Source: Amycolatopsis sp. 2-15 (GTDB taxonomy: Bacteria; Actinomycetota; Actinomycetes; Mycobacteriales; Pseudonocardiaceae). From it: a stretch of DNA of 64,000 nt. Every line of letters begins with the position of its first letter. Positions within the stretch are counted from its first letter, which is position 1. Below are positions 25,794 to 41,650 of this stretch, piece after piece. The notes under the pieces are model-generated. The model saw only the letters and a program-made list of their open reading frames with translations, made no database searches and was not told the origin of the DNA. The DNA is taken from contig NZ_CP127294.1 in assembly GCF_030285625.1 (NCBI RefSeq), positions 9,618,001 to 9,682,000 of the forward strand, written 5' to 3'. The position numbers and the translations under genes are program-made.

Positions 25794-25800
25794 CAGGATC

Positions 25801-25842
25801 GGGTCCGTAAACGACCACGCTCACCGGACCGGATCCGGACCC
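25801..25842 (+). terminator. Possible terminator hairpin after glycerate kinase
   Basis: GGGTCCG (25801-25807) pairs with CGGACCC (25836-25842), with CGGACC and GGATCC words between them. It starts 7 bp past the glycerate kinase stop. There is no U run, so this is a weak call. Confidence 0.4.
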
Positions 25843-25844
25843 GA

Positions 25845-25971
25845 CCACAACGCGAGATCGCGCCGGTTTCCGGATTGTGCGGTGCGATCGGCCCCCGGCC
25901 GATCCGACCGCACAATCCGGAAACCGGCTTCGCGGCGATCTCGCACGCCCCGGCGGAGCCGGGGCCAAAAA
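25845..25971 (-). repeat. Dispersed palindromic element, copy 1 (3' of the HesB-like gene)
   Basis: Read on the minus strand, the element begins 18 nt after the HesB-like stop with a T-rich run, then a small hairpin GCCCCGGC-TCC-GCCGGGGC (25947-25965), then a long hairpin (25852-25944). The long hairpin has outer arms GCGAGATCGC/GCGATCTCGC, a perfect 21-bp middle stem (25863-25883 with 25907-25927), a 2x2 mismatch and an inner GATCGGCC/GGCCGATC stem. Copy 2 lies at 41326-41458. The two copies differ in the stems in ways that keep pairing. It encodes no protein. Confidence 0.85.
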
Positions 25972-25989
25972 CACAGCAGCGAGATTCAA

Positions 25990-26286
25990 TCAACTCTGTT
26001 GCGGCAGCACCGCAAAGGCCACGTCGCCGGTTTCGTCCTGCTGGACGTCGAGAACCTTGTCGTCCAGGAGAGCGGCGGCCTGGGGTTCGAGGAAGACCTT
26101 CGCGCCGGCGTCGGTGCCCACGACGCGGTCGCCGTCCTGGGGAGAGGGGGCGACGGAAAGCGCGAGCTGAGCGCCCTCGCCCTCCTGCACGCTCTGGAGG
26201 GCGAACCGCAGCCCGCTCTCCTCGGCGCCCTGTTGAGCCGTCAGCGCGGAGATCGCTTCGGCAGCGGCTTCGGTCACGGTCAGCAT
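25990..26286 (-). CDS. HesB-like (A-type Fe-S carrier fold) protein without cysteines
   Basis: The 98-residue protein begins MLTVTEAAAEAISAL and continues with RFALQSVQEGEGAQLALSV and a VVGTDAGAKVFLEPQAAALLDDKVLDV segment, matching the HesB/IscA-like fold. A-type carriers need three conserved Cys to bind Fe-S clusters; this chain has none, so cluster transfer seems excluded. Such Cys-free members are annotated as HesB-like in actinomycetes, with unknown role. It stands alone, with copy 1 of the palindromic element directly downstream. Confidence 0.75.
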   Translation of the reverse strand: MLTVTEAAAEAISALTAQQGAEESGLRFALQSVQEGEGAQLALSVAPSPQDGDRVVGTDAGAKVFLEPQAAALLDDKVLDVQQDETGDVAFAVLPQQS

Positions 26287-26588
26287 CTTCGGCCTTCCCT
26301 TCGTCGCGGTCGGATGCGATGGGTTTTCACGCTAGGGGCGCCCGTTCGGCAGCGCAGCGTGAGCGGCGCACTCGCCGAGCAGCCGTGGGACCGGTCACAA
26401 AGACGTTTGAAAACCGGGCGTTCTGCCCAGTCGCGGGCGCGGGTGCGCGCGGACACTCAAAAAAAACGGAATAGCCGGGGAGCCGCGCGGGCTGAACTAC
26501 GTGAGCGGAGCGCCTGTCAGCGGGATCACAAGTGTTCAATGGCTTCATCAGGTTCACAAGTTTGTGAAGCAGAGGTAGCGTCACGATC
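26287..26588. promoter_or_regulatory. Divergent intergenic region with a TTCACAA-GT-TTGTGAA palindrome
   Basis: This 302-bp region separates the HesB-like gene from the GtrA-like gene. At 26553-26568 there is a perfect inverted repeat, TTCACAA (26553-26559), 2-nt centre, TTGTGAA (26562-26568), ending 20 bp before the GtrA-like start. A partial second copy (ATCACAAGTGTTCA) lies at 26525-26538. The pair look like operator half-sites for a dimeric repressor of the + strand genes. An A-rich run (about 26459-26466) is also notable. No gene is visible. Confidence 0.55.
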
Positions 26589-27077
26589 ATGACCACCACC
26601 AGGTGGACGCCCCGGCCGCCGCTTTTCCACCGGGACCCGCAGCGTCACCACGAGGACCACGAGCTCGGCGGACACGCTGCCTGGTACCTCGTCGCCGGCG
26701 GCGTCACCACGGGCCTGCAGGCCGTGCTCTTCCTGGTTCTGCGCCCCGAGTTCGGCTCGCAGTGGGCGAACCTGGTGGCCATCGCGCTCACGACGGTCGG
26801 CAACACCGAGTTCCACCGCCGCGTCACCTTCGCCGGGCGCGCGAGCAAGGCCGGCCAGCGCCACCTGCAGGACTTCCTCACCTTCGTCTTCTACGCCGGC
26901 TACGGCTCGATCGTCTTGGCCACCCTCGACGCCGTGGTCAGCCACCCGACGGCGTGGGAGGAAACGGCGAGCCTGCTGGCGGCCAGCTTCGTCGGCGGGG
27001 TCGTGCGGTTCGCCGTGCTGCGGTGGTGGGTCTTCGCCCACGCCGAGCCCGAAGCGCCCGCCGCGGACCAGGACTAA
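26589..27077 (+). CDS. GtrA-like small membrane protein
   Basis: The 162-residue protein has about four hydrophobic segments (starting AAWYLVAGGVTTGLQAVLFL) and the GtrA-family hallmark region around NTEFHRRVTFAG. GtrA proteins are thought to help flip lipid-linked sugars, but many actinobacterial members are uncharacterised. It is followed 11 bp later by two DUF202 genes, probably in one transcript. Confidence 0.75.
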   Translation: MTTTRWTPRPPLFHRDPQRHHEDHELGGHAAWYLVAGGVTTGLQAVLFLVLRPEFGSQWANLVAIALTTVGNTEFHRRVTFAGRASKAGQRHLQDFLTFVFYAGYGSIVLATLDAVVSHPTAWEETASLLAASFVGGVVRFAVLRWWVFAHAEPEAPAADQD

Positions 27078-27088
27078 CGTCCGGGTTC

Positions 27089-27472
27089 GTGTCGGAAGAG
27101 AAGCTCGACCCGCCCCACGACGAACCTCCCAGCATCGGCCCTCACAGCGGCGGCACCGAACCGGACTACCGGTTCACCCTCGCCAACGAGCGGACGTTCC
27201 TCGCCTGGCTGCGCACCGCGCTGGGCCTGCTCGCCGGCGGCGTCGCGGTCCACCAGCTGGTGCCCAGGCCCGTCGCGATGAGCTCCGTGCTCGCCGGGCT
27301 GTGCGTGGTGCTCGCGGCGATCCTCGCGGCCGGCGCCTACCCGCGCTGGCGGCACGTGCAGATCGCCATGCGCGCCGGGCAGCCGCTGGCCCGCAGTTCG
27401 ATGATCCTGGTGCTCACCGCGGGCGTGTTCCTGCTGATGGCGGCCGCCGTGGTGCTGGTGATCACGTCGTGA
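27089..27472 (+). CDS. DUF202 (YidH-like) membrane protein
   Basis: This 127-residue protein has an acidic, Pro-rich N-terminus, then the DUF202 signature FTLANERTFLAWLRTALGLLAGG and two more hydrophobic helices. The GTG start at 27089 fits the frame and places DUF202 about 30 residues in. DUF202 proteins are three-helix inner-membrane proteins of unknown function, commonly in adjacent pairs, as here. Confidence 0.85.
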   Translation: MSEEKLDPPHDEPPSIGPHSGGTEPDYRFTLANERTFLAWLRTALGLLAGGVAVHQLVPRPVAMSSVLAGLCVVLAAILAAGAYPRWRHVQIAMRAGQPLARSSMILVLTAGVFLLMAAAVVLVITS

Positions 27473-27774
27473 GCCGGCCCTTCGCGAACGGCGCCCAGCC
27501 CGAACGCACCGGCCTCGCGTGGCGCCGGACCGCGCTGTCGGCCGCCGCGTGCGCGGTGCTGCTGCTGGGTGCCTCGGTGCGCAACGAAGGCACGTGGGAC
27601 ATCATTCCGGCGGTGTTCGCGGCCCTCACCGCGCTGGCGCTCGCGGGGATCGGCCGACACCGGGAGCGATCACTGCGCACCGACCCCGAGCCGCCCGCAC
27701 TGAAACCCGTTCTACCCGCGGTGGTGGCCACCCTCTGTTGCGCTACGGCGGTGTCACTCTTGGTCACGTACTGA
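27469..27774 (+). CDS. Second DUF202 membrane protein
   Basis: This 101-residue protein shows a shorter DUF202 signature (QPERTGLAWRRTALSAAACAVLLL) and three hydrophobic helices. The GTG at 27469 overlaps the preceding stop as GTGA. The two proteins probably form a hetero-oligomer in the membrane (inference). Confidence 0.85.
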   Translation: MSRPFANGAQPERTGLAWRRTALSAAACAVLLLGASVRNEGTWDIIPAVFAALTALALAGIGRHRERSLRTDPEPPALKPVLPAVVATLCCATAVSLLVTY

Positions 27775-27823
27775 GTGGACAGTCCGCACATCCTGCGAGC
27801 AGCGAATCGTACTGTGCGTTGAC

Positions 27824-27846
27824 TGGTCTCGTTTTTATCAAGACCA
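27824..27846. promoter_or_regulatory. Inverted repeat in the sigma-factor upstream region
   Basis: TGGTCT (27824-27829) and AGACCA (27841-27846) flank an AT-rich 11-nt loop. A TTGACT hexamer overlaps its left end, but I could not find a well-spaced -10. It lies about 180 bp upstream of the ECF sigma gene and may be an operator or small hairpin. Confidence 0.35.
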
Positions 27847-28027
27847 CTGCTGCTAACGGGGTATTCGTAGTTGAAATCTGGACTGTCGGCCCGCGAGCCG
27901 CATAAGGTTACGGAGCGTCGCAACGGGAGCGGCAACTACCCGATCATCCGAAGTAGCTGCGACCGCAACATCACAGAGTGTTGACCCCAAGACCAGCGAC
28001 GGTCGCAGGGTCGCCGGGGAGACGACC

Positions 28028-28699
28028 ATGACAGCACCGTCGAAGACGTCCCATACCGAAGCAGCCGCCGACGAAGGCGACGTCCCAGGCTACGTCACGC
28101 CCGAGACACTGCCGAGGCCTGCGGGACGGCTGACGAAGGAAGACCTCGACCCGCTCGTGGTCGCCGCGGGCCGGGGAGACCAGCGCGCGATCACCGAGCT
28201 GCTCCACGTGCTGCGACCGGTGGTGGCCCGCTACTGCCGGGCGCGCATGGGCGGGCGCGACCTGTCCTACCTCTCGGCCGACGACGTGGCCCAGGACGTG
28301 AGCATGGCCGTCCTCAAGGCCCTGCCCGACTACCAGGACCGCGGCGGCTCGTTCCTCTACCTCGTGCACGCCATCGCGGCCAACAAGGTCGCCGACGCCT
28401 ACCGCGCCGTCGCGCGGGACCGGTCCGAGCCGGTGCCGGAGCTGCCGGAGCGGCCGCTGTCTGGGGGCGGCAACGAGCCCGAGTCGTATGCGCTGCGGCT
28501 CGACCTCGGCTCCCGCCTGCAGGAGATGCTCACCCGCCTCGCGCCGCTGCAGCAGGAGATCCTGACCCTGCGCATCATCGTCGGCCTCAGCGCCAACGAG
28601 ACCGCCGAAACACTCGGCATCTCCGCCGGCAACGTCCGCGTCACCCAGCACCGCGCCCTGACCAAGCTGCGCGACATGGTCCAGGGCCAAGACTTCTGA
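28028..28699 (+). CDS. ECF-like RNA polymerase sigma factor (SigD/ShbA-like)
   Basis: The 223-residue protein has sigma region 2 (LLHVLRPVVARYCRARM ... DVAQDVSMAVLKALPDY, then FLYLVHAIAANKVADAYR) and region 4 with an HTH (GLSANETAETLGISAGNVRVTQHRAL). The N-terminal extension with the PETLPRPAGRLTKEDLDPL stretch recalls the SigD/ShbA group of actinobacteria; in Streptomyces ShbA drives transcription of the principal sigma gene (family knowledge). The ATG at 28028 has GGGGAGA 6 nt upstream. No anti-sigma gene follows; the next gene is convergent, 7 bp away. Confidence 0.85.
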   Translation: MTAPSKTSHTEAAADEGDVPGYVTPETLPRPAGRLTKEDLDPLVVAAGRGDQRAITELLHVLRPVVARYCRARMGGRDLSYLSADDVAQDVSMAVLKALPDYQDRGGSFLYLVHAIAANKVADAYRAVARDRSEPVPELPERPLSGGGNEPESYALRLDLGSRLQEMLTRLAPLQQEILTLRIIVGLSANETAETLGISAGNVRVTQHRALTKLRDMVQGQDF

Positions 28700-28706
28700 G
28701 CAAAAT

Positions 28707-29537
28707 CTAGCCGAGCCCATACACGCGCTTGGCCGTGTACTCGAAGACGTCGAGCCGTTCCGGGTCCGTCAGCGGACCCGTGAGCGACACGGCCGCGTCG
28801 AGCACCACCTCGTAGGCCGCCGCCAGCTCGCACACCGGCCAGTCGCTGCCGAACAGCACGCGGTCGGCACCGAACGACGTGAAGACGTGGTCGGCGTAGC
28901 GGCGCAGGTGCCCGATCTGCCACTGCTGCCAGTCGGCCTCCGTGACGAGCCCGGAGAGCTTGCACGCCACGTTGTCCCGCGCGCCGAGCGACGCGATCCC
29001 GTCGGCCCACGGCTGCCACTCTCCCGCCGCGATCGCCGGCTTCGCCGCGTGATCGAGCACGAGCCGCAGCTCCGGCAGCTGCTCGGCCACCTTCCGCGCC
29101 GCCGCGACCTGCGTCGGCGCCACCAGCAGGTCGTACACGAGCCCCGCCGCGCCGACGGCCGCCAAGCCGCGCAGCACGTCCGGGCGCAGCAGCCACTCGG
29201 GGTCCGGCTCGTTCTCCACCTGGTGGCGGATGCCGACGAGCGGGCCGAGCTCCTTCAGCCGCGCCAGCCGGTCGGCGACATCGGGCGCCGTCAGGTCCAC
29301 CCAGCCCACCACACCGGCGATCACGGGTTCGGCCGCCGCCGTGGCCAGGAACTCCTCCGTCTCGCCCTGATCGGAGAGCGTCTGCACCAGCACGGTGGCG
29401 TGCACGCCGGCCGCGTGCGTCACCGCGCGCAGATCGTCCACTGTGTACGGACGGCGGATCGGGTCCAGCGCCGCGCCGGCGAGCCACGGGTAGTCGCGGC
29501 GGGTCGGGTCCCACAGGTGGTGGTGGGCGTCGATCAC
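28707..29537 (-). CDS. Amidohydrolase-family lactonase (L-fuconolactonase type)
   Basis: This 276-residue TIM-barrel protein begins IDAHHHLWD (HxH metal-site motif) and has LVLDHAAKP and a late FGSDWPVCEL, the pattern of the amidohydrolase-2 family that includes L-fuconolactonase and L-rhamnono-lactonase. It should open the aldonolactone made by the preceding aldo/keto reductase. The GTG at 29537 overlaps that gene's stop (GTGA). The exact sugar is inferred from the cluster. Confidence 0.87.
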   Translation of the reverse strand: MIDAHHHLWDPTRRDYPWLAGAALDPIRRPYTVDDLRAVTHAAGVHATVLVQTLSDQGETEEFLATAAAEPVIAGVVGWVDLTAPDVADRLARLKELGPLVGIRHQVENEPDPEWLLRPDVLRGLAAVGAAGLVYDLLVAPTQVAAARKVAEQLPELRLVLDHAAKPAIAAGEWQPWADGIASLGARDNVACKLSGLVTEADWQQWQIGHLRRYADHVFTSFGADRVLFGSDWPVCELAAAYEVVLDAAVSLTGPLTDPERLDVFEYTAKRVYGLG

Positions 29538-30508
29538 TGCGGTCCTCCAGACGTCACGGGCCGGCCGACGGCGTCCGCGCGCAGCAGGCCGGCGTCGACG
29601 AGGTCGGTCCACAGTACGGCGGGCACGACCTTGGCCGCGCGGCGCGCGTTCACCGCCACCTGCCCGGCGTCGTGCGCCCCGATGACCACCGACACCACGG
29701 CCGGGTGTGAAGCCGGCAGGGCGAGCGCGGCCTCCGGAAGTTCGACGCCGTGGCGGGCGCAGATCTCCGCGATCCGCCGTGCCTTCTCCACGAGCTCCGC
29801 CGGTGCGGCCGCGTAGTCGTAGATCGCGCCCGGTTCCACGGTGGCGAGGATGCCCGCGTTGAACACGCCGCCCGCGACCACGCCGACGCCGCGGTCGAGG
29901 CACAGCGGCAGCAGGTCGTCGAGCGCCGGCTGGTTGAGCAGCGTGTAGCGCCCGGCCATGAGCACGTGTTCGAGGTCGAAGCGGCGGACGAACTCGGTGA
30001 GCATCGGCGTCTGGTTCATCCCGGCGCCGACCGCGCCGACCACGCCCTGCTCGCGCAGCTCCAGCAACGCCGGGAAGGCACCGTTCACGGCTTCGGCGAA
30101 GTGGTCGTCCGGGTCGTGCACGTACACGATGTCCACGCGGTCGAGGCCGAGCCGGGTCAGGCTGTCCTCGAGCGACCGCAGCACGCCGTCGCGGCTGAAG
30201 TCCCAGCGGCGCCGGTAGGTGGCCGGCACGTCGAAGCCCTGGTCGTCGCGCTCGCCCGGCGCCGCGGCGTGGGGTTCGAGCACGCGCCCGACCTTGGTGG
30301 ACAGCACGTACTCCTCGCGCGGGTACGCGGCGAGTGCCGCGCCGAGCCGCCGTTCGGAGAGCCCGAGCCCGTAGTGCGGGGCGGTGTCGAAGTAGCGGAT
30401 GCCCTCGTCCCACGCGCGCCGCACGGTCGCGGTCGCCGTGTCGTCGTCGATCGCCTGGTAGAGGTTGCCGAGCTGCGCGCCACCGAGCCCGAGCGGGGAG
30501 AGCTTCAC
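29534..30508 (-). CDS. Aldo/keto reductase (L-fucose dehydrogenase type)
   Basis: The 324-residue AKR shows the catalytic tetrad regions: FDTAPHYGLGLSERRLG (Asp, Tyr), LSTKVGR (Lys) and VDIVYVHDP (His). It resembles NAD(P)-dependent L-fucose / D-threo-aldose 1-dehydrogenases, which oxidise the free sugar to its 1,5-lactone. The GTG at 30508 was chosen because AAGGAG lies 5 nt upstream; the GTG at 30514 would have no spacing. The rhamnose-mutarotase-like gene ends 2 nt before. Confidence 0.85.
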   Translation of the reverse strand: MKLSPLGLGGAQLGNLYQAIDDDTATATVRRAWDEGIRYFDTAPHYGLGLSERRLGAALAAYPREEYVLSTKVGRVLEPHAAAPGERDDQGFDVPATYRRRWDFSRDGVLRSLEDSLTRLGLDRVDIVYVHDPDDHFAEAVNGAFPALLELREQGVVGAVGAGMNQTPMLTEFVRRFDLEHVLMAGRYTLLNQPALDDLLPLCLDRGVGVVAGGVFNAGILATVEPGAIYDYAAAPAELVEKARRIAEICARHGVELPEAALALPASHPAVVSVVIGAHDAGQVAVNARRAAKVVPAVLWTDLVDAGLLRADAVGRPVTSGGPQ

Positions 30509-30510
30509 GT

Positions 30511-30849
30511 TCACTCCTTCACCGGAAGTTCCCAGACGAGCCCGAGGGCCGTCGAAGTATCGGACCGGCTGTCGTCCGTGTCGAGCAGCCGGTTGATGCG
30601 GAGCTGCCACTCGATGTCGGCGGGATCGTCGGCGAGCGCGGCCTTCATGGCGTCGAAGTCGTCGACCTCCACGAAGTGGAACAGGTCGAGCCCGCTGCGC
30701 CAGATCCGCCACGTGCGCACGCCGGCGCGGCGCAGCGCGGTGTCGAGCTCGGGAGGGATCACGGCGTGCACGGACTCGTACGTGGCCTCTTGACCCGGTT
30801 TGAGCCGCGTGCGCAAAGCGACACTTTGAGGTGCCTGGCCGTGGGTCAT
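30511..30849 (-). CDS. L-rhamnose mutarotase-family protein
   Basis: The 112-residue protein is of the RhaM (DUF718) family: VALRTRLKPGQEATYESVHAVIPPEL, then GVRTWRIWRSG and FHFVEVDDFDAM. These enzymes interconvert anomers of 6-deoxyhexoses. In this cluster it may prepare the correct L-fucose or L-rhamnose anomer for the dehydrogenase. The ATG at 30849 has AGGAGGAG 3-5 nt upstream. The promoter is shared with the divergent GntR gene. Confidence 0.88.
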   Translation of the reverse strand: MTHGQAPQSVALRTRLKPGQEATYESVHAVIPPELDTALRRAGVRTWRIWRSGLDLFHFVEVDDFDAMKAALADDPADIEWQLRINRLLDTDDSRSDTSTALGLVWELPVKE

Positions 30850-30896
30850 GTCTCCTCCTGACGGTTTACGTGGCACTCTGTGCTCAGAACACCGAA

Positions 30897-30907
30897 ACAT
30901 CCGAGGT
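30897..30907. promoter_or_regulatory. Candidate GntR operator ACATC-C-GAGGT
   Basis: The 11-mer differs at one arm base from the perfect palindrome ACATC-C-GATGT found at 38327-38337 before the hydrolase gene of the same cluster. It lies 22 bp before the GntR start, in the divergent promoter region. Shared use by the adjacent GntR regulator is inference. Confidence 0.55.
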
Positions 30908-30929
30908 CTCTTGAGGGAGGGCGGTCTCG

Positions 30930-31664
30930 ATGCCCGTCACCGATGTCGCGATCGACAAGATCAAGGACATGATCATCTCGGGGGAGCTCGCGCCGGGCGA
31001 CCGGCTGCCCAAGGAAGCCGAGCTCGCCCAGCGGCTGGGGCTTTCGCGCAGCTCCCTGCGCGAGGCCGTGAAAGCGTTGTGCCTGATCAGGGTGCTCGAC
31101 GTGCGCCAGGGCGACGGCACGTACGTGACCAGCCTCGAGCCGAACCTGCTGCTCGACGCCATGACGTTCGTAGTCGACTTCCACCGCGACGACACCGTGC
31201 TCGACTTCCTGGCCGTGCGCCGGATCCTCGAGCCGGCCGCGACGGCGCTGGCCGCGCTGCACATGAGCGAGGACGACATCACCGAGCTCGGCGCGCTGCT
31301 CGACGAGCTGGCCGACGCGCCGACGGTGGAGGCGCTCGTGGCCAACGACCTGCAGTTCCACCGCAAGATCGCCGACGGCTCGGGCAACCCCGTGCTGTGC
31401 TCGCTGCTCGACAGCCTGTCCGGGCCCACGGCGCGGGCGCGGATCTGGCGCGGCCTCACGCAGGAAGGCGCGGTCGCGCGCACGCGTGAGCAGCACAGCG
31501 CCATCTACGACGCCATCGCCGCCCGCGAGCCGGAGCTGGCCCGGTCGTGGGCGACCGTGCACGTCGCGGGCGTCGAGCAGTGGCTGCGCAGCACGCTCAC
31601 GCAGACCGACACCGGTGCCGCCGACAGCCCGGCCGACGAGAGCCCCGAAGCCGCCGCCTCCTGA
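30930..31664 (+). CDS. GntR-family (FadR/FCD) regulator of the deoxysugar cluster
   Basis: The 244-residue protein has an N-terminal GntR winged HTH (DRLPKEAELAQRLGLSRSSLREAVKAL) and an FCD effector domain (LAVRRILEPAATALAALHM, NDLQFHRKIADGSGNP, EQHSAIYDAI) whose Asp/His residues usually bind a metal that helps hold a carboxylate ligand. An acid intermediate such as fuconate or a keto-deoxy acid is a likely inducer. It is divergent from the mutarotase-reductase-lactonase genes. Confidence 0.9.
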   Translation: MPVTDVAIDKIKDMIISGELAPGDRLPKEAELAQRLGLSRSSLREAVKALCLIRVLDVRQGDGTYVTSLEPNLLLDAMTFVVDFHRDDTVLDFLAVRRILEPAATALAALHMSEDDITELGALLDELADAPTVEALVANDLQFHRKIADGSGNPVLCSLLDSLSGPTARARIWRGLTQEGAVARTREQHSAIYDAIAAREPELARSWATVHVAGVEQWLRSTLTQTDTGAADSPADESPEAAAS

Positions 31665-31678
31665 GCGGCGCCGAAGCT

Positions 31679-31729
31679 CCGTGAAGGGCCCCGCGCGGGA
31701 CTCCGAATCCCGGAAGGGGCCCGTCACGG
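31679..31729. terminator. Bidirectional terminator hairpin between GntR and ABC permease
   Basis: CCGTGAAGGGCCCC (31679-31692) pairs with GGGGCCCGTCACGG (31716-31729), 13 of 14 positions, with an inner CGGGA/TCCCG stem. It lies between two convergent genes and can serve both strands. Confidence 0.75.
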
Positions 31730-31768
31730 AACGGCGAGAAGGTCGGATGATCACGGCCCAGGCGCCGA

Positions 31769-32785
31769 TCAGGTCTGCGGCTTTCCGCCGGCGTAGCGGC
31801 TGATGATCAGGGCGATCAGGATGATCCCGCCGTAGATCGCCTTCAGCCATTCCGCCGGCACCTGCGCGATGCGCAGCAGGCTGTCCACCGACTGCAGGAG
31901 CAGCACCCCGGTCAGCGCGCCGACCAGAGTGCCCTTGCCGCCGTCGAGCGACACACCGCCGATCACCGCCGCGGCGAAGACCTGCAGGATCAGGCCGTCA
32001 CCCTGGTCGGCGCCGAGCGCGCCGACGTAACCGGTGTAGGCCAGGCCGCCGATCGCGGCCAGCACGCCGGCCACGATGAACACCGCCCACGAGATCCGGT
32101 CCACCCGGATGCCCGCCGCGCGCGCCGCCTCGCGGTTGCCGCCGATCGCGTAGAGCGAGCGGCCGACGCGGTGGTAGCGCAGGCCGAGCCCGAAGAGCAG
32201 GAACAGCACCGCGGCCAGCCACACCGACATCGGCAGCCCGGCGAACGTCGTGGTCGCCAGCGCCGTGAACGCGTCGAGCTGGTCGAACAGTGTCTTGCCG
32301 TTGGTGGAGCCGATCTGCGTGCCGCGCAGCACCGTGAGCATCGCCAGCGTGACGATGAACGCGTTGAGCTTGAGCTTCACGATCAGGAAGCCGTTCACGA
32401 ACCCGATCAGCGCGCCCACCACAGGGATCGCGAGCAGGCCCAGCGCCGCCGGCCACCCCGTGCCGAAGCCCGAGGACGTCGCCGGGATCACCAGCATGGC
32501 GCCGATCGCGGGCGCGATGCCCATGGTCGATTCCAGCGACAGGTCGAACTTGCCGGTCAGCAGCACCAGCGACTCGCCCAGCACCACCAGCGACAGCGCC
32601 GCGGCGGCCGAGAGGATGCTGATCACGTTGTCGAACGTGAAGAACGAGTCGCTGATCAGCCCGCCGATCACGAACACGACCACGAGTGCCGGCAGCAGCG
32701 CCAGCTCCCGCAGCCACAGCGACTTCCGCCGTTTCGGGGGCGCCGCGGGCAGCGCCGTCTGCGGATCGCTCATCAGCTCAGTCAT
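31769..32785 (-). CDS. Sugar ABC transporter permease (RbsC type)
   Basis: The 338-residue protein has about nine hydrophobic segments and the BPD_transp_2 signatures LTGKFDLSLESTMGIAPAIGA and YAIGGNREAARAAGI, then AAVIGGVSLDGGKGT. It is a CUT2-type permease for monosaccharides. The ATG at 32785 lies 8 nt inside the end of the ATPase gene. In this cluster the cargo is probably L-fucose or a related deoxyhexose. Confidence 0.92.
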   Translation of the reverse strand: MTELMSDPQTALPAAPPKRRKSLWLRELALLPALVVVFVIGGLISDSFFTFDNVISILSAAAALSLVVLGESLVLLTGKFDLSLESTMGIAPAIGAMLVIPATSSGFGTGWPAALGLLAIPVVGALIGFVNGFLIVKLKLNAFIVTLAMLTVLRGTQIGSTNGKTLFDQLDAFTALATTTFAGLPMSVWLAAVLFLLFGLGLRYHRVGRSLYAIGGNREAARAAGIRVDRISWAVFIVAGVLAAIGGLAYTGYVGALGADQGDGLILQVFAAAVIGGVSLDGGKGTLVGALTGVLLLQSVDSLLRIAQVPAEWLKAIYGGIILIALIISRYAGGKPQT

Positions 32786-34301: not shown

Positions 34302-35344
34302 AGGTTGTTACCCCACAACGCCTTGTCGTCCACGTTGTCCTTCGTCACGACCGGGGCCGGCAGCTGGTCTTCGAGGATGCCGGGGCTGATCTCGACGATC
34401 GTGGAACCGTGGTCGGTCGGGCCGGGCTGGAACTTCTCCCCCGCCATGGCCTTCTTGAGCCAGTACATGCCGTACTTGGCGTAGGCGTCGGCCGGCTGCG
34501 ACACGGTGGCGTCGAGCTCGCCCGCGCGGATCGCCGCGAGCTCCTGCGGGATGCCGTCGTTGCTCACGAGCACCACGTGGCGCGCGTCGCTCGTGGGGAA
34601 GAACAGGTTCTTGCGCTTGAGCGCCTGCTCGGTCGGCGCGAGGTACGTACCGCCGGCCTGCATGTAGACGCCCTTGATGTCGGGGTTGGCGGTGAGCAGG
34701 CTGTCGAGGCCCGAGGACGCCTTGTCGGCCTTCCACTCCGCCGCGATCTCCAGCACCTTGATGTCCGGGTACTTCTGCTTCATGCAGTCGCGGAACGCGG
34801 CCGAGCGGTCACGGCCGTTCACGGAGGCGAGGTCACCCATCACCTGCACGACCTTGCCGCTCTTCACGCGCTTGCCGATCTCTTCGCACGCCTTGGTGCC
34901 GTACGCCTTGTTGTCGGCGCGCACGACCATGGCGACCTTGCCGCCCTCGGGCGCGACGTCGACCGCGACCACGGGCACGCCCTTGTTCTCGGCCTGCTTC
35001 AGCCCGGCCACGATCGCGGCGGAGTCGATCGGCGTCACCACGAGGCCCTTGACGCCCTGGTTGAGCAGGGTGCCGATGTCGGTGATGAGCTTCGCCGCGT
35101 CGTTGTCGGCGTTCACCGTCGGCAACGCGTCGAGGCCGGTCTCCTTGGCCATCTGCGGCACGTAGTTGTTGTAGGCCTGCCAGAACGGCGAGGTCAGCAG
35201 CGGCAGCGTGGCCCCGACCTTCCCGCCGGTGTCGCCACCGCCGCCCGCCGACGCCGCGGGTTTGTCCTTCGTGGACCCACACGCGGTCAGGACCAGACCA
35301 CACGCGGCCGCCGCGGCGGCGAGCCGGATCACCTTCGTACGCAC
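34298..35344 (-). CDS. Sugar-binding lipoprotein, periplasmic-binding-protein 4 type
   Basis: The 348-residue protein has a lipoprotein signal with lipobox LTAC (Cys22), a short Gly/Ser linker, and a type I periplasmic-binding fold (ATLPLLTSPFWQAYNNYV, LLNQGVKGLVVTPIDSAA, QVMGDLASVNGRDRSAAF). It is the extracytoplasmic receptor of the CUT2 importer. The GTG at 35344 has a perfect AAGGAGG 5 nt upstream. Confidence 0.92.
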   Translation of the reverse strand: MRTKVIRLAAAAAACGLVLTACGSTKDKPAASAGGGGDTGGKVGATLPLLTSPFWQAYNNYVPQMAKETGLDALPTVNADNDAAKLITDIGTLLNQGVKGLVVTPIDSAAIVAGLKQAENKGVPVVAVDVAPEGGKVAMVVRADNKAYGTKACEEIGKRVKSGKVVQVMGDLASVNGRDRSAAFRDCMKQKYPDIKVLEIAAEWKADKASSGLDSLLTANPDIKGVYMQAGGTYLAPTEQALKRKNLFFPTSDARHVVLVSNDGIPQELAAIRAGELDATVSQPADAYAKYGMYWLKKAMAGEKFQPGPTDHGSTIVEISPGILEDQLPAPVVTKDNVDDKALWGNNL

Positions 35345-35375
35345 CGCATCCTCCTTGATGACATGCAAACGGGCA

Positions 35376-36134
35376 CTAGTTCTGCACAGGTCCCCGCGGA
35401 CGCAGGCCGTGCATGCCGCCGTCGACCGCGAGCGCGGTGCCGGTGGTCGACGCGGACAGCGGGCTGGCGAGGTAGGTGATGGCGCTCGCGACCTCGTCGG
35501 CGGTCACGAGCCGGCCCATCGGCTGGCGCGCGGCCAGTGCCGCGCGCTCGGCGGCCGGGTCGGCCGCCGCGTCGAGCAGGCGCCCGACCCACGGCGTGTC
35601 CGCGGTGCCGGGGCACACGCAGTTCACGCGGATCCGGTCGGGCAGGTGGTCGGTGGCCATCGCGAGCGTCAGCGACAGCACCGCACCCTTCGTCGCGGAG
35701 TAGAGCGCGCGCTGCGGCAGGCCGGCCCAAGCGGCGATGGAGCAGGTGTTGACCACGGCCGCCGAAGGCGAGGCCTTCAGGTGCGGCAGGGCGGCGCGCG
35801 TCACCCGGACCATGCCGACCACGTTCACGTCGTAGACGCGGTGCCACTCGTCGTCGCTGTTGTCCGAGACGTCGCCGGCCGCGCCGATGCCGGCGTTGTT
35901 GACCAGCACGTCGATCCGCCCGCAGCGCTCGACGACGGCGTCGATCGCCGCGGTGACCTCGGCGTCTGTCGTGACGTCGCACCGGAAGCCGGCCAGCGGC
36001 TCCGGCACGTCGTCGGTCTTGAGGTCGAGCACGGCCACCCGCGCGCCGCGTTCGGCGAGCAGCGTGGCCGTGGCCAGGCCGATCCCCGAAGCGCCGCCGG
36101 TGACCACGGCGACCAGGCCGTCGAACTCGCTCAC
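35376..36134 (-). CDS. SDR oxidoreductase (2-keto-3-deoxy-L-fuconate dehydrogenase type)
   Basis: This 252-residue short-chain dehydrogenase has the cofactor motif TGGASGIG, an NNAGIG segment and the catalytic YSATK. Placed between fuconate dehydratase and the transporter, it is best explained as the enzyme that oxidises 2-keto-3-deoxy-L-fuconate to the 2,4-diketo acid before hydrolytic cleavage (pathway known from Xanthomonas and Burkholderia). GTG start overlaps the dehydratase stop (GTGA). Confidence 0.83.
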
Positions 36135-37432
36135 TGGGCGTCCTCCGTCCACTCTGGACCGTCCGGGAAGCGGAAGCGGCGCAGGGTCGCGTCGTGCATC
36201 CGCGCGGAGAACCCGGCTGCGGTCGGGGCCAGGTACCGGCCGTCGCGCACGACGGCCGGGTCGGTGAAGTGCTCGTGCAGGTGGTCGACCCACTCGATGG
36301 TGCGGTCGGTGTCCTCCCCGGAGACGGCCACGAAGTCGAACATCGACAGGTGCCGCACCAGCTCGCACAGCCCGACGCCGCCGGCGTGCGGGCACACCGG
36401 AACGCCGAACTTGGCGGCCAGCAACAGGATCGCGAGGTTCTCGTTCACCCCGCCGACGCGCGCGGCGTCGAGCTGCAGCACGTCGATCGCGCCGGCCTGC
36501 AGCAGCTGCTTGAACACCACGCGGTTCTGCACGTGCTCGCCGGTCGCGACCTTGATCGGCGCCAGTGCCTTCGCGATGGCCGCGTGGCCCAGGATGTCGT
36601 CGGGCGAGGTCGGTTCTTCGATCCAGTACGGGTCGAACGGCGCGAGCTCCGTCATCCACGACACGGCCGTGGACACGTCCCAGCGCTGGTTGGCGTCCAC
36701 GGCGACCCGGATGTCCGCGCCCACGGTCTCGCGCGCCAGCTTCATGCGGCGCACGTCGTCGGAGAGGTTGCCGCCGACCTTCAGCTTGATCATCTCGAAG
36801 CCGTCGGCCACGGCCTGCTCGGCCAAGCGCACCAGCTTCGCGTCGGAGTAGCCGAGCCAGCCCGGCGACGTGCTGTAGGCGCGATAACCCTCGGCTTCGA
36901 GCTTCGCGATCCGCTCCTCGCGCCCGGGCTCGGCGGCGCGCAGGATGTCGAGCGCCTCCTGCTCGGTCAACGCGTCGGACAGGTACCGGAAGTCCACGAG
37001 CGACACCAGCTCTTCCGGCGTCATGCGCGCCGCGAACTTCCACAGCGGCAGGTCGGCCCGGCGCGCGGCGAGGTCCCACGCGGCGTTCACGACCGCGCCG
37101 ATCGCCATGTGCGCCACGCCCTTTTCCGGGCCCAGCCACCGGAACTGCGAGTCGCCGATCAGGTCGCGCGAGAGCTGGCCGAGTGCCTCGGCGTCCTCCG
37201 GCACGTCGCGGCCGACGACGTGCGGCGCGAGTGCGCGGATCGCGGCGGCCTGCACGTCGTTGCCGCGGCCGATGGTGAAGGCGAGCCCGTAGCCGTCGGG
37301 GCCGAGGTCGGTGTGGAGCTCGACGTAGGCGGCCGAGTAGTCGGGGTCGGGGTTCATGGCGTCCGAGCCGTCGAGCTCCCGCGAGGTCGGGAACCGGACG
37401 TCGAGCACCTCCATGCCCATGATCTTCGCCAT
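36131..37432 (-). CDS. L-fuconate dehydratase (enolase superfamily)
   Basis: The 433-residue protein is a mandelate-racemase-group enolase: MIKLKVGG (catalytic Lys-x-Lys), DANQRWD (metal Asp), [10 protein letters not shown] (metal Glu), ATGEHVQNR (metal Glu) and [11 protein letters not shown] (His region). The long N-terminus with [17 protein letters not shown] and TIGRGND is characteristic of L-fuconate dehydratases. It removes water from L-fuconate to give 2-keto-3-deoxy-L-fuconate. The next gene starts its stop 1 bp away. Confidence 0.92.
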
Positions 37433-37433
37433 G

Positions 37434-38294
37434 TCAGGCCTGCCTCAGCGTCTGGCGCTGGCGGCCGAGGCCGTCGATCTCCAGCTCGACGACGTCGCCC
37501 TCGCGCAGGTACGGCTTCGGTTCCGGCTGCCCGAGCGCGACCCCCTCGGGGGTGCCGGTGTTGATCAGGTCGCCGGGGCGCAGCACCATGAACTGGCTCA
37601 GGTAGTGGATGATCTCGGCGACGGTGAAGACCATGTCCTTCGTCGAGGAGTCCTGCACCTTTTTACCGTTCACCCACGTGCGCAGGCCGAGGTCCTGCGG
37701 GTCGGGCACCTCGTCGGCGGTCACGAACGCAGGGCCGAGCGGGTTGAACGTCTCGCAGTTCTTGCCCTTGTCCCACTGGCCGCCGCGGTGCAGCTGGAAC
37801 TCGCGCTCGGAGACGTCGTTGGACACGACGTAGCCGGCGACGTACTGGAGGGCTTCCTCGACGCTGTCGAGGTAACGGGCCTGCTTGCCGATCACGACGC
37901 CGAGCTCGACCTCCCAGTCGGTGCTGGTCGAACGGCGCGGGATGAGCACGTCGTCGTCCGGGCCGACGATCACGTCGGGAGCCTTCATGAACAGCACGGG
38001 CTCCGACGGCACGGCGGCGCCGGTTTCCTCGGCGTGCCGGCGGTAGTTCATGCCGATACAGAGGACCTTGCCGGGCGAGGCCAGCGGCGGGCCGACACGC
38101 AGGCTCGCGGTTTCCGGGCCGGCGGCGGGCAGCTCGCCGGCTTCGAGCGCGGCGGCGACGCGGGCGAGGCCGTCGGCCGCGAGGAACGCGCCGTCGACGT
38201 CGGCCGTGAGGCCTGAGAGGTCGTACAGGGTGCCGTCACCGGCACGCACGAACGGTCGCTCTTCTCCCGCGGCTCCGAGACGCACAAGCTGCAC
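37434..38294 (-). CDS. Fumarylacetoacetate hydrolase-family protein (diketo-deoxyfuconate hydrolase type)
   Basis: The 286-residue protein has the FAH fold: [14 protein letters not shown], the metal-binding [10 protein letters not shown] and NDVSEREFQ segments, then [10 protein letters not shown]. In 6-deoxyhexose pathways such enzymes split 2,4-diketo-3-deoxy-L-fuconate to pyruvate and L-lactate. It is the first gene of the run toward lower coordinates (hydrolase, dehydratase, SDR, importer). The GTG at 38294 has a GGGGAA-like site 7-8 nt upstream. Confidence 0.88.
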
Positions 38295-38326
38295 GGACGT
38301 TCCCCTCTCACCACAGCCACATCCAG

Positions 38327-38340
38327 ACATCCGATGTATA
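38327..38340 (-). promoter_or_regulatory. Operator ACATC-C-GATGT overlapping a TATACA -10
   Basis: A perfect 11-bp palindrome (38327-38337) overlaps, on the minus strand, a TATACA hexamer (38340-38335). Start of transcription near 38328 would leave a leader of about 34 nt before the hydrolase GTG. The palindrome nearly matches the site at 30897-30907 next to the GntR gene, so both look like targets of that regulator. Overlap with the -10 suits repression. Confidence 0.65.
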
Positions 38341-38649
38341 GCGCATGAGCCGCGAGGGATCCAGAGGTCTGGAGGATTTGTTGCCAAAAGAGATCGGATC
38401 TCCCTGGTGGGGGGCCCTGGGGACGCCGCTGCCGATCGTCCCTCGGTCCAGGCGTGGGCGCACGCCGGCGCCGGCGCGCTTTCGTCGGATCTTTCCCCAC
38501 GGGCGTGGGGACAGCGTGAATACGACGTGTTTCCTGTGTTTCTCTTGCCACACCTCGGCTTCGGTACCGATTCGGCCGAACCCGTTGAAAACACCGCCGG
38601 GTCGTGACTTGATGGCTTCCGACCCATCGACGCTGTGAACGAGGTGCGG
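38341..38649. other. Intergenic stretch between the deoxysugar operon and the DUF2235 gene
   Basis: About 310 bp without a recognisable gene. A TTGGCAACAA stretch on the minus strand (about 38381-38390) is too far from the TATACA box to be its -35. GTGGGG/CCCCAC words near 38495-38515 could form a small hairpin. I see nothing else. Confidence 0.5.
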
Positions 38650-39693
38650 ATGCCCAAGCGGATCCTGATCTGCTGCGACGGCACGTGGGACTCGGCGGAC
38701 CTGGCCGACGGCGGCGTGCCCGCCCCGAGCAACGTCACCCGCCTCGCGCTGGCCACCGCGCCGGTCGACGAAGCCGGCACGGAGCAACGGGTCTTCTACC
38801 AGTCGGGCATCGGCTCCCAGCGGCAGCGCCTGCTCGGCGGCGCGTTCGGCGTCGGGCTCTCGCGCAACGTCCGCGAGGTCTACACCTATCTGGTGCACAC
38901 CTATGAGCCCGGCGACGAGATCTTCTTCGTGGGCTTCAGCCGCGGCGCGTACACCGTGCGCAGCGTGGCCGGCTTCATCCGCAACTGCGGCCTGCTGCGC
39001 CGCGAGCACGTCGGCCTCGTCAAGCGCGCCTACGGCCTCTATCGCGACCGCAGCGACAAGTCCCACCCGCGCAACACCGAAGCCACGCTGTTCCGCCGCA
39101 CCTATTCGCACGAGCCGCGGATCCGGTTCATCGGCGTGTGGGACACGGTGGGCGCGCTCGGCGTGCCGCTCACCGGCTTCTGGCCCATCGACGTGTTCAA
39201 CCGCCGCTTCCAGTTCCACGACACCGCGCTCAGCTCCACCGTGGACGCCGCGTTCCAGGCCCTGTCGATCGACGAGCACCGCAAACCGTTCGTGCCCTCG
39301 ATCTGGGCGCCGCCCGCCGCGCCCGGCACGGAGCGGATCGAGCAGGTCTGGTTCGCCGGCTGCCACTCCGACGTCGGCGGCGGCGGGCAGACCCAGCGCA
39401 GCCTCTCCGACGTCCCGCTGCGCTGGCTCGCGAGCCACGCCGCGCTCAACGGCCTCGCGCTCCTGCCGGACTTCCCGTGCGAACCCGACGCCCTGGGTCC
39501 GATGTTCCCGTCCCGCAGGGGCTTCTACCGCCTCCTGCCCTCGGTGACACGCGGCATCGGGACCACGGACCCGAAGCACGAGTTCGTCGCCTCCAGCGCG
39601 GTCACCCGCCACAAGCTCGCGGCCGACTACGCGCCGCCGAACCTGGTGGGGTACCTGGCACTGGACGGGCTGGTCATTCCGGTTGAGGTCTGA
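38650..39693 (+). CDS. DUF2235 alpha/beta-hydrolase-like protein
   Basis: The 347-residue protein carries the DUF2235 pattern: RILICCDGTWD near the N-terminus, FFVGFSRGAYTVRSVAGF (nucleophile elbow GFSRG), GVWDTVGALG and WFAGCHSDVGGG. Members include T6SS phospholipase effectors (Tle1-like) and many stand-alone proteins of unknown role. No signal peptide or secretion gene is nearby. The ATG at 38650 has GAGG 5 nt upstream; an in-frame GTG at 38635 is possible. The gene is convergent with the next, 3 bp apart. Confidence 0.85.
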   Translation: MPKRILICCDGTWDSADLADGGVPAPSNVTRLALATAPVDEAGTEQRVFYQSGIGSQRQRLLGGAFGVGLSRNVREVYTYLVHTYEPGDEIFFVGFSRGAYTVRSVAGFIRNCGLLRREHVGLVKRAYGLYRDRSDKSHPRNTEATLFRRTYSHEPRIRFIGVWDTVGALGVPLTGFWPIDVFNRRFQFHDTALSSTVDAAFQALSIDEHRKPFVPSIWAPPAAPGTERIEQVWFAGCHSDVGGGGQTQRSLSDVPLRWLASHAALNGLALLPDFPCEPDALGPMFPSRRGFYRLLPSVTRGIGTTDPKHEFVASSAVTRHKLAADYAPPNLVGYLALDGLVIPVEV

Positions 39694-39696
39694 GCC

Positions 39697-40923
39697 TTAC
39701 CCGACATCGGCGAGGTTGCCCGACTTCAGCTCCTCGTCACTCACCTTCATCCGCCCGTCCACCAGGCGCTGCAACGCATCCCCGTCGTCCCACTGGTTCA
39801 CGTTCATCGCGGCGTGCACCTCGCCTTCGGCGCCGACCCAGAAAGCCGTGAAGTCGCGCGCCGCGAGGTCGCCGCGGACGACGAGGCGGTCGTGGCCGGG
39901 GTCGGCGAGGCCGCGGTACTCCATGCCGAGGTCGTACTGGTCGGAGAAGAAGTACGGCGAATCCAGGTACGGCTCGTTCTCCCCCAGCAGGTTCCCGGCC
40001 ACGTGGGCGCCCTGCGTGCGCGCGGTGGCCCAGTGCTCGACGCGCACGCGGTGGCCGTAGCGCGGGTGGAAGTGCGACGCGATGTCGCCGACGGCGTAGA
40101 CGTCCGGGGCGGCCGTGCGCAGGCCCGCGTCGACCGCGACGCCGCCGTCGTCCGTCAGCTCGAGGCCCGCCGTGTGAGCGAGTTCCACGCGCGGGGCGGC
40201 GCCGACGGCCACGAGGACCACGTCGGCCAGCAGCTCCTCGCCGCTCTGCAATCGCACGCCGCGTACGCCGCTCGGGTCACCCGTGACCTCCGCGACGCGC
40301 TCCCCCAGGCACCAGTGCACGCCGTGTTCTTCGTGCAGGGACTGGAAAACCTCGGCCACCTCGGGGCCGAGGACCTTGCCGAGCGGCCGGCGCCCGGGCG
40401 CCACCACGGTCACGTCCGCGTCGTGCGAGCGCGCGGCCGCCGCGGCCTCGGTGCCGATCCAGCCGGCGCCGATGACCACCACGCGCCGGGCGTCGACGAA
40501 TGCCGTGCGCAGGCTGAGCGAGTCGTCCAGCGTGCGCAGGGTGTAGAGGCCCGGGAAGTTGCCGCCGGGCGCGGTCAGCGGTCGCGGGCGGGAACCCGTC
40601 GCGAGCACGAGCCGGTCGAAGCGGTGCTCGCCGCCGGCGTCGTCGAGGACCAGGCGTGCGCCGAGTTCCAGGCGTGTGGCCGTGAGGTCGGAGGTGAGCC
40701 GGATGTCGTGGGCGGCGTAGAAGCCCTCTTCGTGCACCCAATCGGGTTCGTCGGTGGTGCCCAGCAGCACGCCCTTCGACAGCGGCGGCAGCTCGTAGGG
40801 CCGGTGCGGGTCCGAACCCATCAGCAGCACGTCGCCACCGAAGCCCTTCTCGCGCACCCCGGCGGCGGCCGAGGCCCCCGCGAGACCGGCCCCGACGATC
40901 ACGATCTTGCTCGGCTGTGCCAT
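39697..40923 (-). CDS. FAD-dependent ferredoxin-reductase-like oxidoreductase
   Basis: This 408-residue protein has two dinucleotide folds: FAD motif IVGAGLAGASAA at the N-terminus and NAD motif VVIGAGWIGTEAA in the middle, plus the FAD-binding VYAVGDIASH and a C-terminal reductase domain. It resembles ferredoxin/rubredoxin reductases of the BphA4/AlkT class that feed cytochrome P450s or dioxygenases. No ferredoxin gene is adjacent. The ATG at 40923 has GGGAGG 6 nt upstream. Confidence 0.9.
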   Translation of the reverse strand: MAQPSKIVIVGAGLAGASAAAGVREKGFGGDVLLMGSDPHRPYELPPLSKGVLLGTTDEPDWVHEEGFYAAHDIRLTSDLTATRLELGARLVLDDAGGEHRFDRLVLATGSRPRPLTAPGGNFPGLYTLRTLDDSLSLRTAFVDARRVVVIGAGWIGTEAAAAARSHDADVTVVAPGRRPLGKVLGPEVAEVFQSLHEEHGVHWCLGERVAEVTGDPSGVRGVRLQSGEELLADVVLVAVGAAPRVELAHTAGLELTDDGGVAVDAGLRTAAPDVYAVGDIASHFHPRYGHRVRVEHWATARTQGAHVAGNLLGENEPYLDSPYFFSDQYDLGMEYRGLADPGHDRLVVRGDLAARDFTAFWVGAEGEVHAAMNVNQWDDGDALQRLVDGRMKVSDEELKSGNLADVG

Positions 40924-41116
40924 CCCGACCTCCCGAGTCCCCGCCACCTGCCGCCCGGACGCTACTCCCGTCGCCCGGACGGCACATCCCAGGTGAACTC
41001 GCCCGGAGAACCCGTCGGTAGGCAATTCGGGTGAACCCGCGTAAGACCCGCGTGAGGCGTCCGTCCCACCGCCGCACGAAGCACGACCGCGACGCGGAAT
41101 CGGGAGGGCGAGAGCC

Positions 41117-41320
41117 GTGACAGACCGGGACGAGTGGTCCATCGGCTGCCGGGATCTGGCGGGCAGGCGCAGGGACGTGACGGTGTTCGTGAGCAGCGAC
41201 GACAAGATCGTGCTCGTGGCTCCGCCGGGCGAAGCGGCCGTGCTCGGTCCCCTCGACGTCGGACGGCTGAGGGCCGCGCTGCGCGACGCCGTGGTGGTCG
41301 TGGCGCAGCACCCGGAGTGA
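41117..41320 (+). CDS. Small conserved-looking protein of unknown function
   Basis: A 67-residue protein with a GTG start at 41117 and a GGAG-type site upstream. It is rich in Val/Asp/Arg with a predicted beta-strand pair (DVTVFVSSDDKIVLVAPPGEA) and a C-terminal helix; no Cys, no membrane segment. It resembles the short all-alpha/beta proteins common in Pseudonocardiaceae, but I cannot assign a family. The palindromic element copy 2 begins 5 bp after its stop. Confidence 0.6.
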   Translation: MTDRDEWSIGCRDLAGRRRDVTVFVSSDDKIVLVAPPGEAAVLGPLDVGRLRAALRDAVVVVAQHPE

Positions 41321-41325
41321 TAACA

Positions 41326-41458
41326 GTATTTTCTGCCTCGGCTCCGCCGAGGCGTGCGAGATCGCCTCGCAGCCGGTGTGGGGATCGAGCGGTCGGATCG
41401 GCCTGGCGGCCGATCGCACCGCTCGCTCCCCACGCCCGCGCGATCTCGCGCTGTGGTC
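41326..41458 (+). repeat. Dispersed palindromic element, copy 2 (3' of the small gene)
   Basis: Same plan as copy 1 (25845-25971, opposite strand): an A/T-rich lead, a small hairpin GCCTCGGC-TCC-GCCGAGGC (41335-41353), then a long hairpin with outer arms GCGAGATCGC (41356-41365) and GCGATCTCGC (41440-41449), a middle stem (41378-41393 with 41418-41433, 15 of 16 paired), the same unpaired CG/GC 2x2 site, and an inner GATCGGCC/GGCCGATC stem. Middle-stem bases differ from copy 1 on both arms while pairing is kept. The remaining bases to 41650 show no gene. Confidence 0.85.
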
Positions 41459-41650
41459 ACCCACCTGGTCTAGCGTGTGATGCCGGAATCGCCCCCGGTC
41501 TGCAGTGCCTCCCCCGACAGGCCTCCTCCTCGCCGCCACGGCTGAGCGCCTGGACTGGTGTCGCCGCGGCTGGCTCACCGCGGCCCGGGTGGGTTCGCCA
41601 GGCCGGTTACGATCGCTGTCCAGACCGTGCGTGGAAGGGAAACGGACAGC

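Follow-up and report, generated by a model that had tools for sequence, protein, structure and literature searches.

A dispersed palindromic repeat in Amycolatopsis, probably mobile, whose stem covariation is not proof of selection on RNA

Introduction

Two long palindromic elements lie in a 64,000-nucleotide stretch of the Amycolatopsis sp. 2-15 genome (contig NZ_CP127294.1, positions 9,618,001 to 9,682,000; the whole stretch is termed the window), each just downstream of an unrelated gene. Their arms differ at many bases and still pair, which raises the question of whether such hairpins are RNA elements maintained by selection on pairing or pieces of mobile DNA. A preliminary description, made from the sequence alone, offered two guesses: a structure-borne mobile repeat, which fits best, and an RNA 3′ element such as a terminator, which fares poorly given mixed placement and no terminator-like site at either copy. 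Both copies are probably (at roughly 60%) members of a non-autonomous, structured, REPIN/ERIC-like dispersed mobile repeat. Copies stand at unrelated loci, have sharp ends and one strand-polar fold, and in some cases occupy sites that are empty in relatives. Furthermore, they have been retained for long at orthologous sites, occur in short forms without the stem termed B below, and are found in five genera. The window's genome, a single contig of 10,050,063 bp, is referred to as G000, and those of relatives as G143, G139, G105 and so on.

Structure of the two copies

Both palindromes were found where they had been described, at 25852-25965 (minus strand; copy 1) and 41335-41449 (plus strand; copy 2), counted from the small hairpin through the closing box. 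Outside this core each has a leader and a tail of ~12 nt. The features and the evidence for them are as follows.

25990 to 25992, minus strand: stop codon of the same-sense gene upstream of copy 1 (pattern of synonymous changes in the flank; same codon in G143)
25966 to 25977, minus strand: T-rich leader of copy 1 (GCTGTGTTTTTG), the element's left end (information onset at -11/-12 before the small hairpin, 79 full-length copies)
25947 to 25965, minus strand: small hairpin H1 of copy 1 (GCCCCGGCTCCGCCGGGGC; sequence, folding, covariation)
25935 to 25944, minus strand: box A of copy 1 (GCGAGATCGC), the 5′ side of the 10-bp stem A
25929 to 25934, minus strand: 6-nt bulge of copy 1 (CGCGAA), on the 5′ side
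25862 to 25928, minus strand: stem B, 2x2 CG/GC site and tip GATCGGCC/GGCCGATC of copy 1 (folding)
25852 to 25861, minus strand: box A′ of copy 1 (GCGATCTCGC), the 3′ side of stem A
25839 to 25851, minus strand: tail of copy 1 (GTTGTGGTCGGGT; family consensus ~GCTGTGGTCGCC; information content)
41318 to 41320, plus strand: stop codon of the same-sense gene upstream of copy 2 (shared by G143, G139 and G105)
41323 to 41334, plus strand: leader of copy 2 (ACAGTATTTTCT; information content)
41335 to 41353, plus strand: small hairpin H1 of copy 2 (GCCTCGGCTCCGCCGAGGC; sequence, folding, covariation)
41356 to 41365, plus strand: box A of copy 2 (GCGAGATCGC)
41366 to 41371, plus strand: 6-nt bulge of copy 2 (CTCGCA)
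41372 to 41439, plus strand: stem B, 2x2 site and tip of copy 2 (folding)
41440 to 41449, plus strand: box A′ of copy 2 (GCGATCTCGC)
41450 to 41462, plus strand: tail of copy 2 (GCTGTGGTCACCC; information content)

The predicted RNA folding energies are -100.0 kcal/mol for copy 1 and -96.6 kcal/mol for copy 2 (z -9.1 and -8.8), and none of 200 shuffles folded as well as either. The parts that had been described are all in place: the small hairpin, GCCCCGGC/GCCGGGGC in one copy and GCCTCGGC/GCCGAGGC in the other, the GCGAGATCGC arms, the 2x2 CG/GC site and the GATCGGCC/GGCCGATC tip. Besides the bulge, the 2x2 site and the tip, the stem has no mismatches in copy 1 and three in copy 2. A same-sense stop codon does precede each copy, 24 nt (copy 1) and 14 nt (copy 2) upstream of the small hairpin, which leaves 12 and 2 nt between stop and leader. 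The stop codon before copy 2 is kept in G143, G139 and G105, and the gene before copy 1 stops at the identical codon in G143. At the copy 2 site G143 has two copies, face to face, and at the copy 1 site it has a relic together with a reversed copy where the other gene ends.

A dispersed family with a constant plan

Both window hairpins belong to a family dispersed through G000, as seen by pattern, BLAST and fuzzy scan. The pattern GTGCGAGATCGCN{60,90}GCGATCTCGC matched 16 times, with no match to its backward control, and BLAST with copy 2 gave 55 high-scoring segment pairs, part of which are reverse-strand matches to the same palindrome. A fuzzy scan for the small hairpin plus box A in fetched loci found 43 positions in G000, 45 in G143, 25 in G139 and 6 in four other relatives together; these are lower bounds, with loci taken from BLAST using one query per genome, and include three false positions (G000 6534236, G000 8523399 and G143 7071463). 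The curated G000 set comprises 41 copies (22 full-length, 13 short, 1 of intermediate length and 5 without the closing box). The neighbours of 32 G000 loci are unrelated, in that the 25 best cross-matches listed span 28-58 residues and fit the element itself.

The unit is ~137 nt long and its short form ~73 nt. Information content rises at -11/-12 before the small hairpin and fades ~13 nt past the closing box (79 full-length copies from three genomes), giving sharp ends with CTGTG in the leader and GTGGTC in the tail. The order is leader (G)CTGTGTTnTCT, 8-bp hairpin, GT or G, 10-bp stem A, 5′-side bulge, stem B, 2x2 site, stem C and tail ~GCTGTGGTCGCC. The bulge measures 6 nt in 54 of 85 copies and 5 nt in 28. 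The two ends, CTGTGTTGTCTGCC and CTGTGGTCGCC, look like direct repeats of each other as judged from sequence. Short forms lack stem B, and their junctions vary (18 listed), as would be expected for deletion across a hairpin.

Some copies depart from this plan. A truncated leader-hairpin-box A unit stands right before a complete or second copy at G143 C1:9403672 and 9404954, at G000 C1:2263588 and in the upstream flank of L248 (G119). The junction lies at or near ...GATCGC|TGTG, which resembles either a slip backwards at the hairpin or an insertion within box A. The leader alone is tandemly repeated, in units of ~13-18 nt, before the small hairpin at G143 C1:10566192, G000 C1:5230927 and L282 (G007). 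At G000 C1:6520864 (L005) and 6534428 (L026) and G143 C1:9405401 (L183), GC stands in place of CG on the 5′ side of the 2x2 site, as if the tip had been inverted or repaired.

A covariance model built from 85 copies (alignment A1) also matched genomes beyond G000, in both genus and family. At E <= 0.001, 24 of 80 genus genomes had matches, and 13 genomes hold nine or more; these are match counts and not copy numbers, given that at most 40 candidates were scored per genome and that a palindrome can match the model on both strands. In an even sample of 150 family genomes, with 21 candidates scored in each, 13 genomes from 5 of 46 genera had matches at E <= 1e-5. The same plan was readable by script in 27 of 29 fetched cross-genus copies (the other two had no box pair at 9 of 10), and in all 27 the 10-bp stem A gives way to a 5′-side bulge of 5-7 nt. 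The box A sequence is altered on both sides across genera (GCGAGATCGC, GCGAGTTCGC, GCGAGGTCGC, GCGGGTTCGC). A loop of TTCCCT opposite GTCCAG was found in three genera (g1, g4 and g23) and is therefore likely to be the ancestral form. An exact pattern matched only 3 of 390 family genomes, a strong undercount as the model search shows. Its sole match in a collection of named species, which may not include the window's close relatives, was in Rhodobacter maris and was rejected as chance, there being no hairpin at that site. The plasmids, phages and viral contigs searched gave no match to the element.

Gain, loss and the search for a mobiliser

For 13 copies the two flanks were joined and looked for in three genomes, and 20 stretches were fetched. 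The copy at G000 6618046 is absent from G143 and G139, the copy at G000 461198 is absent from G143, and three G143 copies (1080938, 6225896 and 9192560) are absent from G000. At four loci the other genome has a short form or relic (G143 10566192, 7798703 and 6900600; G000 2662374). The copies covered also include G000 8331340, G000 6544572 and G143 6379797. Identical stems occur at four and at two different loci in G143. The insertion at G143 C1:1080938 is clean and is flanked by a 25-bp duplication with one mismatch; it is the sole copy with a long flanking duplication, and its target already held GGTCGCC, which resembles the tail.

Several points weigh against a mobile repeat. The copy at G000 5418800 is missing in G143, yet G139 has a decayed copy there, so the gap is probably a loss. 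A flanking direct repeat of at least 12 bases was found in just 1 of 108 copies, and a regular target duplication is lacking. In 30 of the 41 G000 copies a flank lies inside a locus fetched around a G143 copy; thus, recent movement looks rare and most copies appear old. No mobiliser was found: the Y1 transposase domain (Y1_Tnp, PF01797) is in none of eight genus genomes, three of them copy-rich, and RVT_1 is in 19 of 30 genomes and does not track the copies. Furthermore, a strict plan kept across genera could equally mean function.

A link to group II or retron-like retroelements was rejected on the grounds that reverse transcriptase does not co-occur with copies: G139, G110, G007, G222 and G224 have model matches without RVT_1, and G086, G091, G103, G133 and G109 have RVT_1 without a model match. 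G000 itself has one match to a reverse transcriptase domain (PF00078), at C1:3312120-3312740.

Covariation and its possible cause

The covariation reported from the two copies is borne out across the family: in alignment A1, with its pairing structure taken from one of its rows, 27 of 48 pairs are changed on both sides. Of all cells, 92.6% pair, and covarying cells number 364 against 102.6 (sd 10.6) in shuffles, so pairing is preserved; sliding the partner by 1-3 columns lowers the number to 24-56. Pairing is thus kept while sequence turns over. However, the step from changes on both arms to selection on structure proved unsafe, given copied arms, few G.T steps and an A.C excess.

The asymmetric loop TTCTTCCCTCC/CTCAGTCCAGAA marks the two arms. 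Both motifs are kept in 27 of 85 full copies. In five the left motif is kept and the right arm is wholly or partly a copy of the left, nine have the right motif only (one of them with a left-side deletion), and 44 have neither, so that the direction of copying cannot be told there. G105 5765017 retains the loop and its ortholog G143 2988717 has a copied arm, with flanks 79% and 71% alike. Across 21 orthologous pairs chosen by the analysts, 46 stem pairs had both bases altered with pairing intact, single changes led to 13 G.T and 24 A.C, and a further 47 changes include loops and misalignment.

In stem columns of 149 copies, sense-strand mismatches were 55 A.C against 10 G.T, or 42:10 after collapsing, where each genome, column and pair was counted once. 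The 55 type II copies had 26 A.C and 8 G.T (collapsed 19:8, p 0.05), the 30 type I copies 12 and 0 (collapsed 11:0), and the 27 cross-genus copies 13 and 1 (collapsed 8:1, p 0.04). From other genus genomes, 29 loop-free copies gave 4:1 (p 0.38), where five mismatches afford no power, and eight loop copies had no A.C or G.T stem mismatches. With internal-loop and 2x2-site columns counted in, the ratios were 41:17, 31:6, 15:2 and 29:11; the stem-only counts have the same direction, with some numbers lower. Flank differences were without transition bias (A/G 1185, C/T 1128). This A.C excess counts against selection on the sense RNA, which predicts the opposite sign; the bottom strand may be the folding one, or G.T may be removed in a folded top strand.

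Taken together, the copied arms, the ortholog pair, the double changes and the A.C excess seem to favour copying from arm to arm over stepwise selection, and the covariation pattern fits template switching. In the sections of PMC8794818 drawn on here, template switching is described as creating and maintaining hairpins, and quasipalindrome correction as yielding multi-base compensatory changes by which arms become each other's reverse complements; quasipalindrome template switching is also the subject of PMC7202029, as far as its excerpt goes. The likeness to the element lies in multi-base compensatory changes that turn the arms into mutual reverse complements. The difference is that here the process would act on a dispersed family, in which many independent products can be compared.

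Placement near genes and rival explanations

An unlikely alternative is a structured RNA element of transcribed 3′ regions, acting as a terminator, stabiliser or processing site and held by selection on pairing. On that reading the bottom strand, opposite to the sense one and carrying the G.U-type mismatches, would be the likelier one to function. Strong covariation and a strand-polar bulge of 5-6 nt in 82 of 85 copies speak for such an RNA; however, the covariation is explicable by arm copying.

Placement was called by a synonymous-change test, with which codon-usage gene calls disagreed; orthologous copies were left uncollapsed and the three false positions were included. For left neighbours (100 flanks), 40 were sense, 27 antisense and 33 uncalled; a second method with longer flanks (n = 113) gave 49, 37 and 27. 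Left neighbours are therefore often antisense (27 of the 67 called by the first test), which speaks against a general role at the 3′ end of the sense transcript. For right neighbours (75 flanks), 32 converged, 1 led away and 42 were uncalled, and with longer flanks the counts were 47, 11 and 55. Convergence on the right would suit a bottom-strand RNA, but the near-universal 32 of 33 is not relied on, having weakened to 47 of 58 with longer flanks, and 11 right neighbours lead away. The 44 copies resolved on both sides lie in 21 convergent gaps, 14 and 8 tandem gaps and 1 divergent gap.

Some copies provide the stop codon of the gene they entered. One is G143 C1:5698328 (L142), where a gene without a stop codon of its own ends, by eye, at the TGA of CTTTGA in the element's bulge.

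The suggested terminator role found no backing at the two window copies, the only copies scanned: no intrinsic terminator-like site (G+C-rich hairpin plus T run) was detected on either strand of 25700-26100 or 41250-41600. Rfam gave no match at gathering score in 25600-41700. In five related loci it gave four matches (E up to 0.1, 23-31 bits against gathering scores of 45-120), two of which overlap the element. Finally, 56 of 80 congeners have no model match, and the element is therefore dispensable, a further point against an RNA function.

Less probable still is a DNA-level host site, such as a palindrome bound by a nucleoid, replication or recombination protein, that spreads by gene conversion and not by transposition. 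A fold conserved amid unrelated neighbours and copies retained at orthologous loci would suit it, but the element is patchy in the genus (24 of 80 genomes), loci are empty in relatives and the arm sequence turns over. A REPIN mobilised by RAYT (a Y1 transposase) is very improbable. Compensatory changes in an extragenic hairpin repeat, described for REPINs in excerpts of PMC3116915, speak for it, but PF01797 is in none of eight genomes, with the positive control matching E. coli and four more of 14 named genomes. Of 85 copies, 4 carry GTAG and 2 carry CGTC in their first 20 nt.

Comparison with known systems

A mobile repeat of this kind has several partial counterparts. With REPIN/REP doublets and RAYT the element shares an extragenic position, many copies, a long hairpin, conserved ends, a variable stem with compensating changes and non-autonomy, and like them it is a dispersed hairpin repeat with compensatory arm changes. 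It is unlike REPINs in lacking conserved tags, in having no Y1 tyrosine transposase in the eight genus genomes searched, and in having a separate small hairpin, a one-sided bulge of 5-6 nt and a length of ~137 nt.

The ERIC/IRU repeats of enterobacteria are likewise imperfect palindromes of ~127-137 nt between genes, with internal deletions and no known mobiliser. RU-1 is given as 127 bp in an excerpt of PMC2759123. The element differs from ERIC/IRU in phylum and in its two-hairpin plan, and the likeness is one of description.

Integron attC sites also conserve fold rather than sequence and have strand polarity. Unlike them, the element shows GTTRRRY / RYYYAAC boxes at its ends in none of 85 copies, and its copies are single and dispersed. 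It is also unlike a miniature inverted-repeat transposable element of a DDE transposon, in that it shows no fixed-length target duplication and its termini, CTGTGTT... and ...GTGGTCGCC, resemble each other as a direct repeat and not as an inverted one. None of the literature titles listed deals with a comparable repeat in this family of bacteria, which does not prove that no paper on one exists; a look-up of actinobacterial terms gave none in PMC3733652 and one mention, in a table, in PMC12306157.

Proposed mechanism and significance

In the proposed mechanism, a host or mobile enzyme would recognise the folded single strand and its two ends, and would paste new copies between genes with no regular target duplication. 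Once a copy has settled, replication may stall at the hairpin, and template switching could then turn one arm into a copy of the other, so that the stem stays perfect while its sequence drifts. The same switching could also delete stem B, or duplicate the leader, small hairpin and box A. More tentatively, and with rather less confidence than in mobility itself, the element may represent an actinomycete family of mobile DNA whose identity lies in a fold and two short ends and not in sequence. Such a family would travel as a folded single strand, with an enzyme outside both the Y1 transposases and the reverse transcriptases, and would renew its stem by copying from arm to arm. It would thereby preserve, in several genera, a natural record of template switching at hairpins.

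Covariation is usually the best evidence for a functional RNA. Here the pattern points to a mutational cause, because arms are copied from each other, G.T half-steps are few and A.C is in excess on the sense strand. Covariation in this family is thus not proof of RNA selection, since arm copies and more A.C than G.T on the sense strand fit template switching. A widely spread repeat with no known mobiliser is now marked out. Its abundance within genomes, and the loci that several species share by orthology, make template switching and selection directly testable against each other as sources of covariation.

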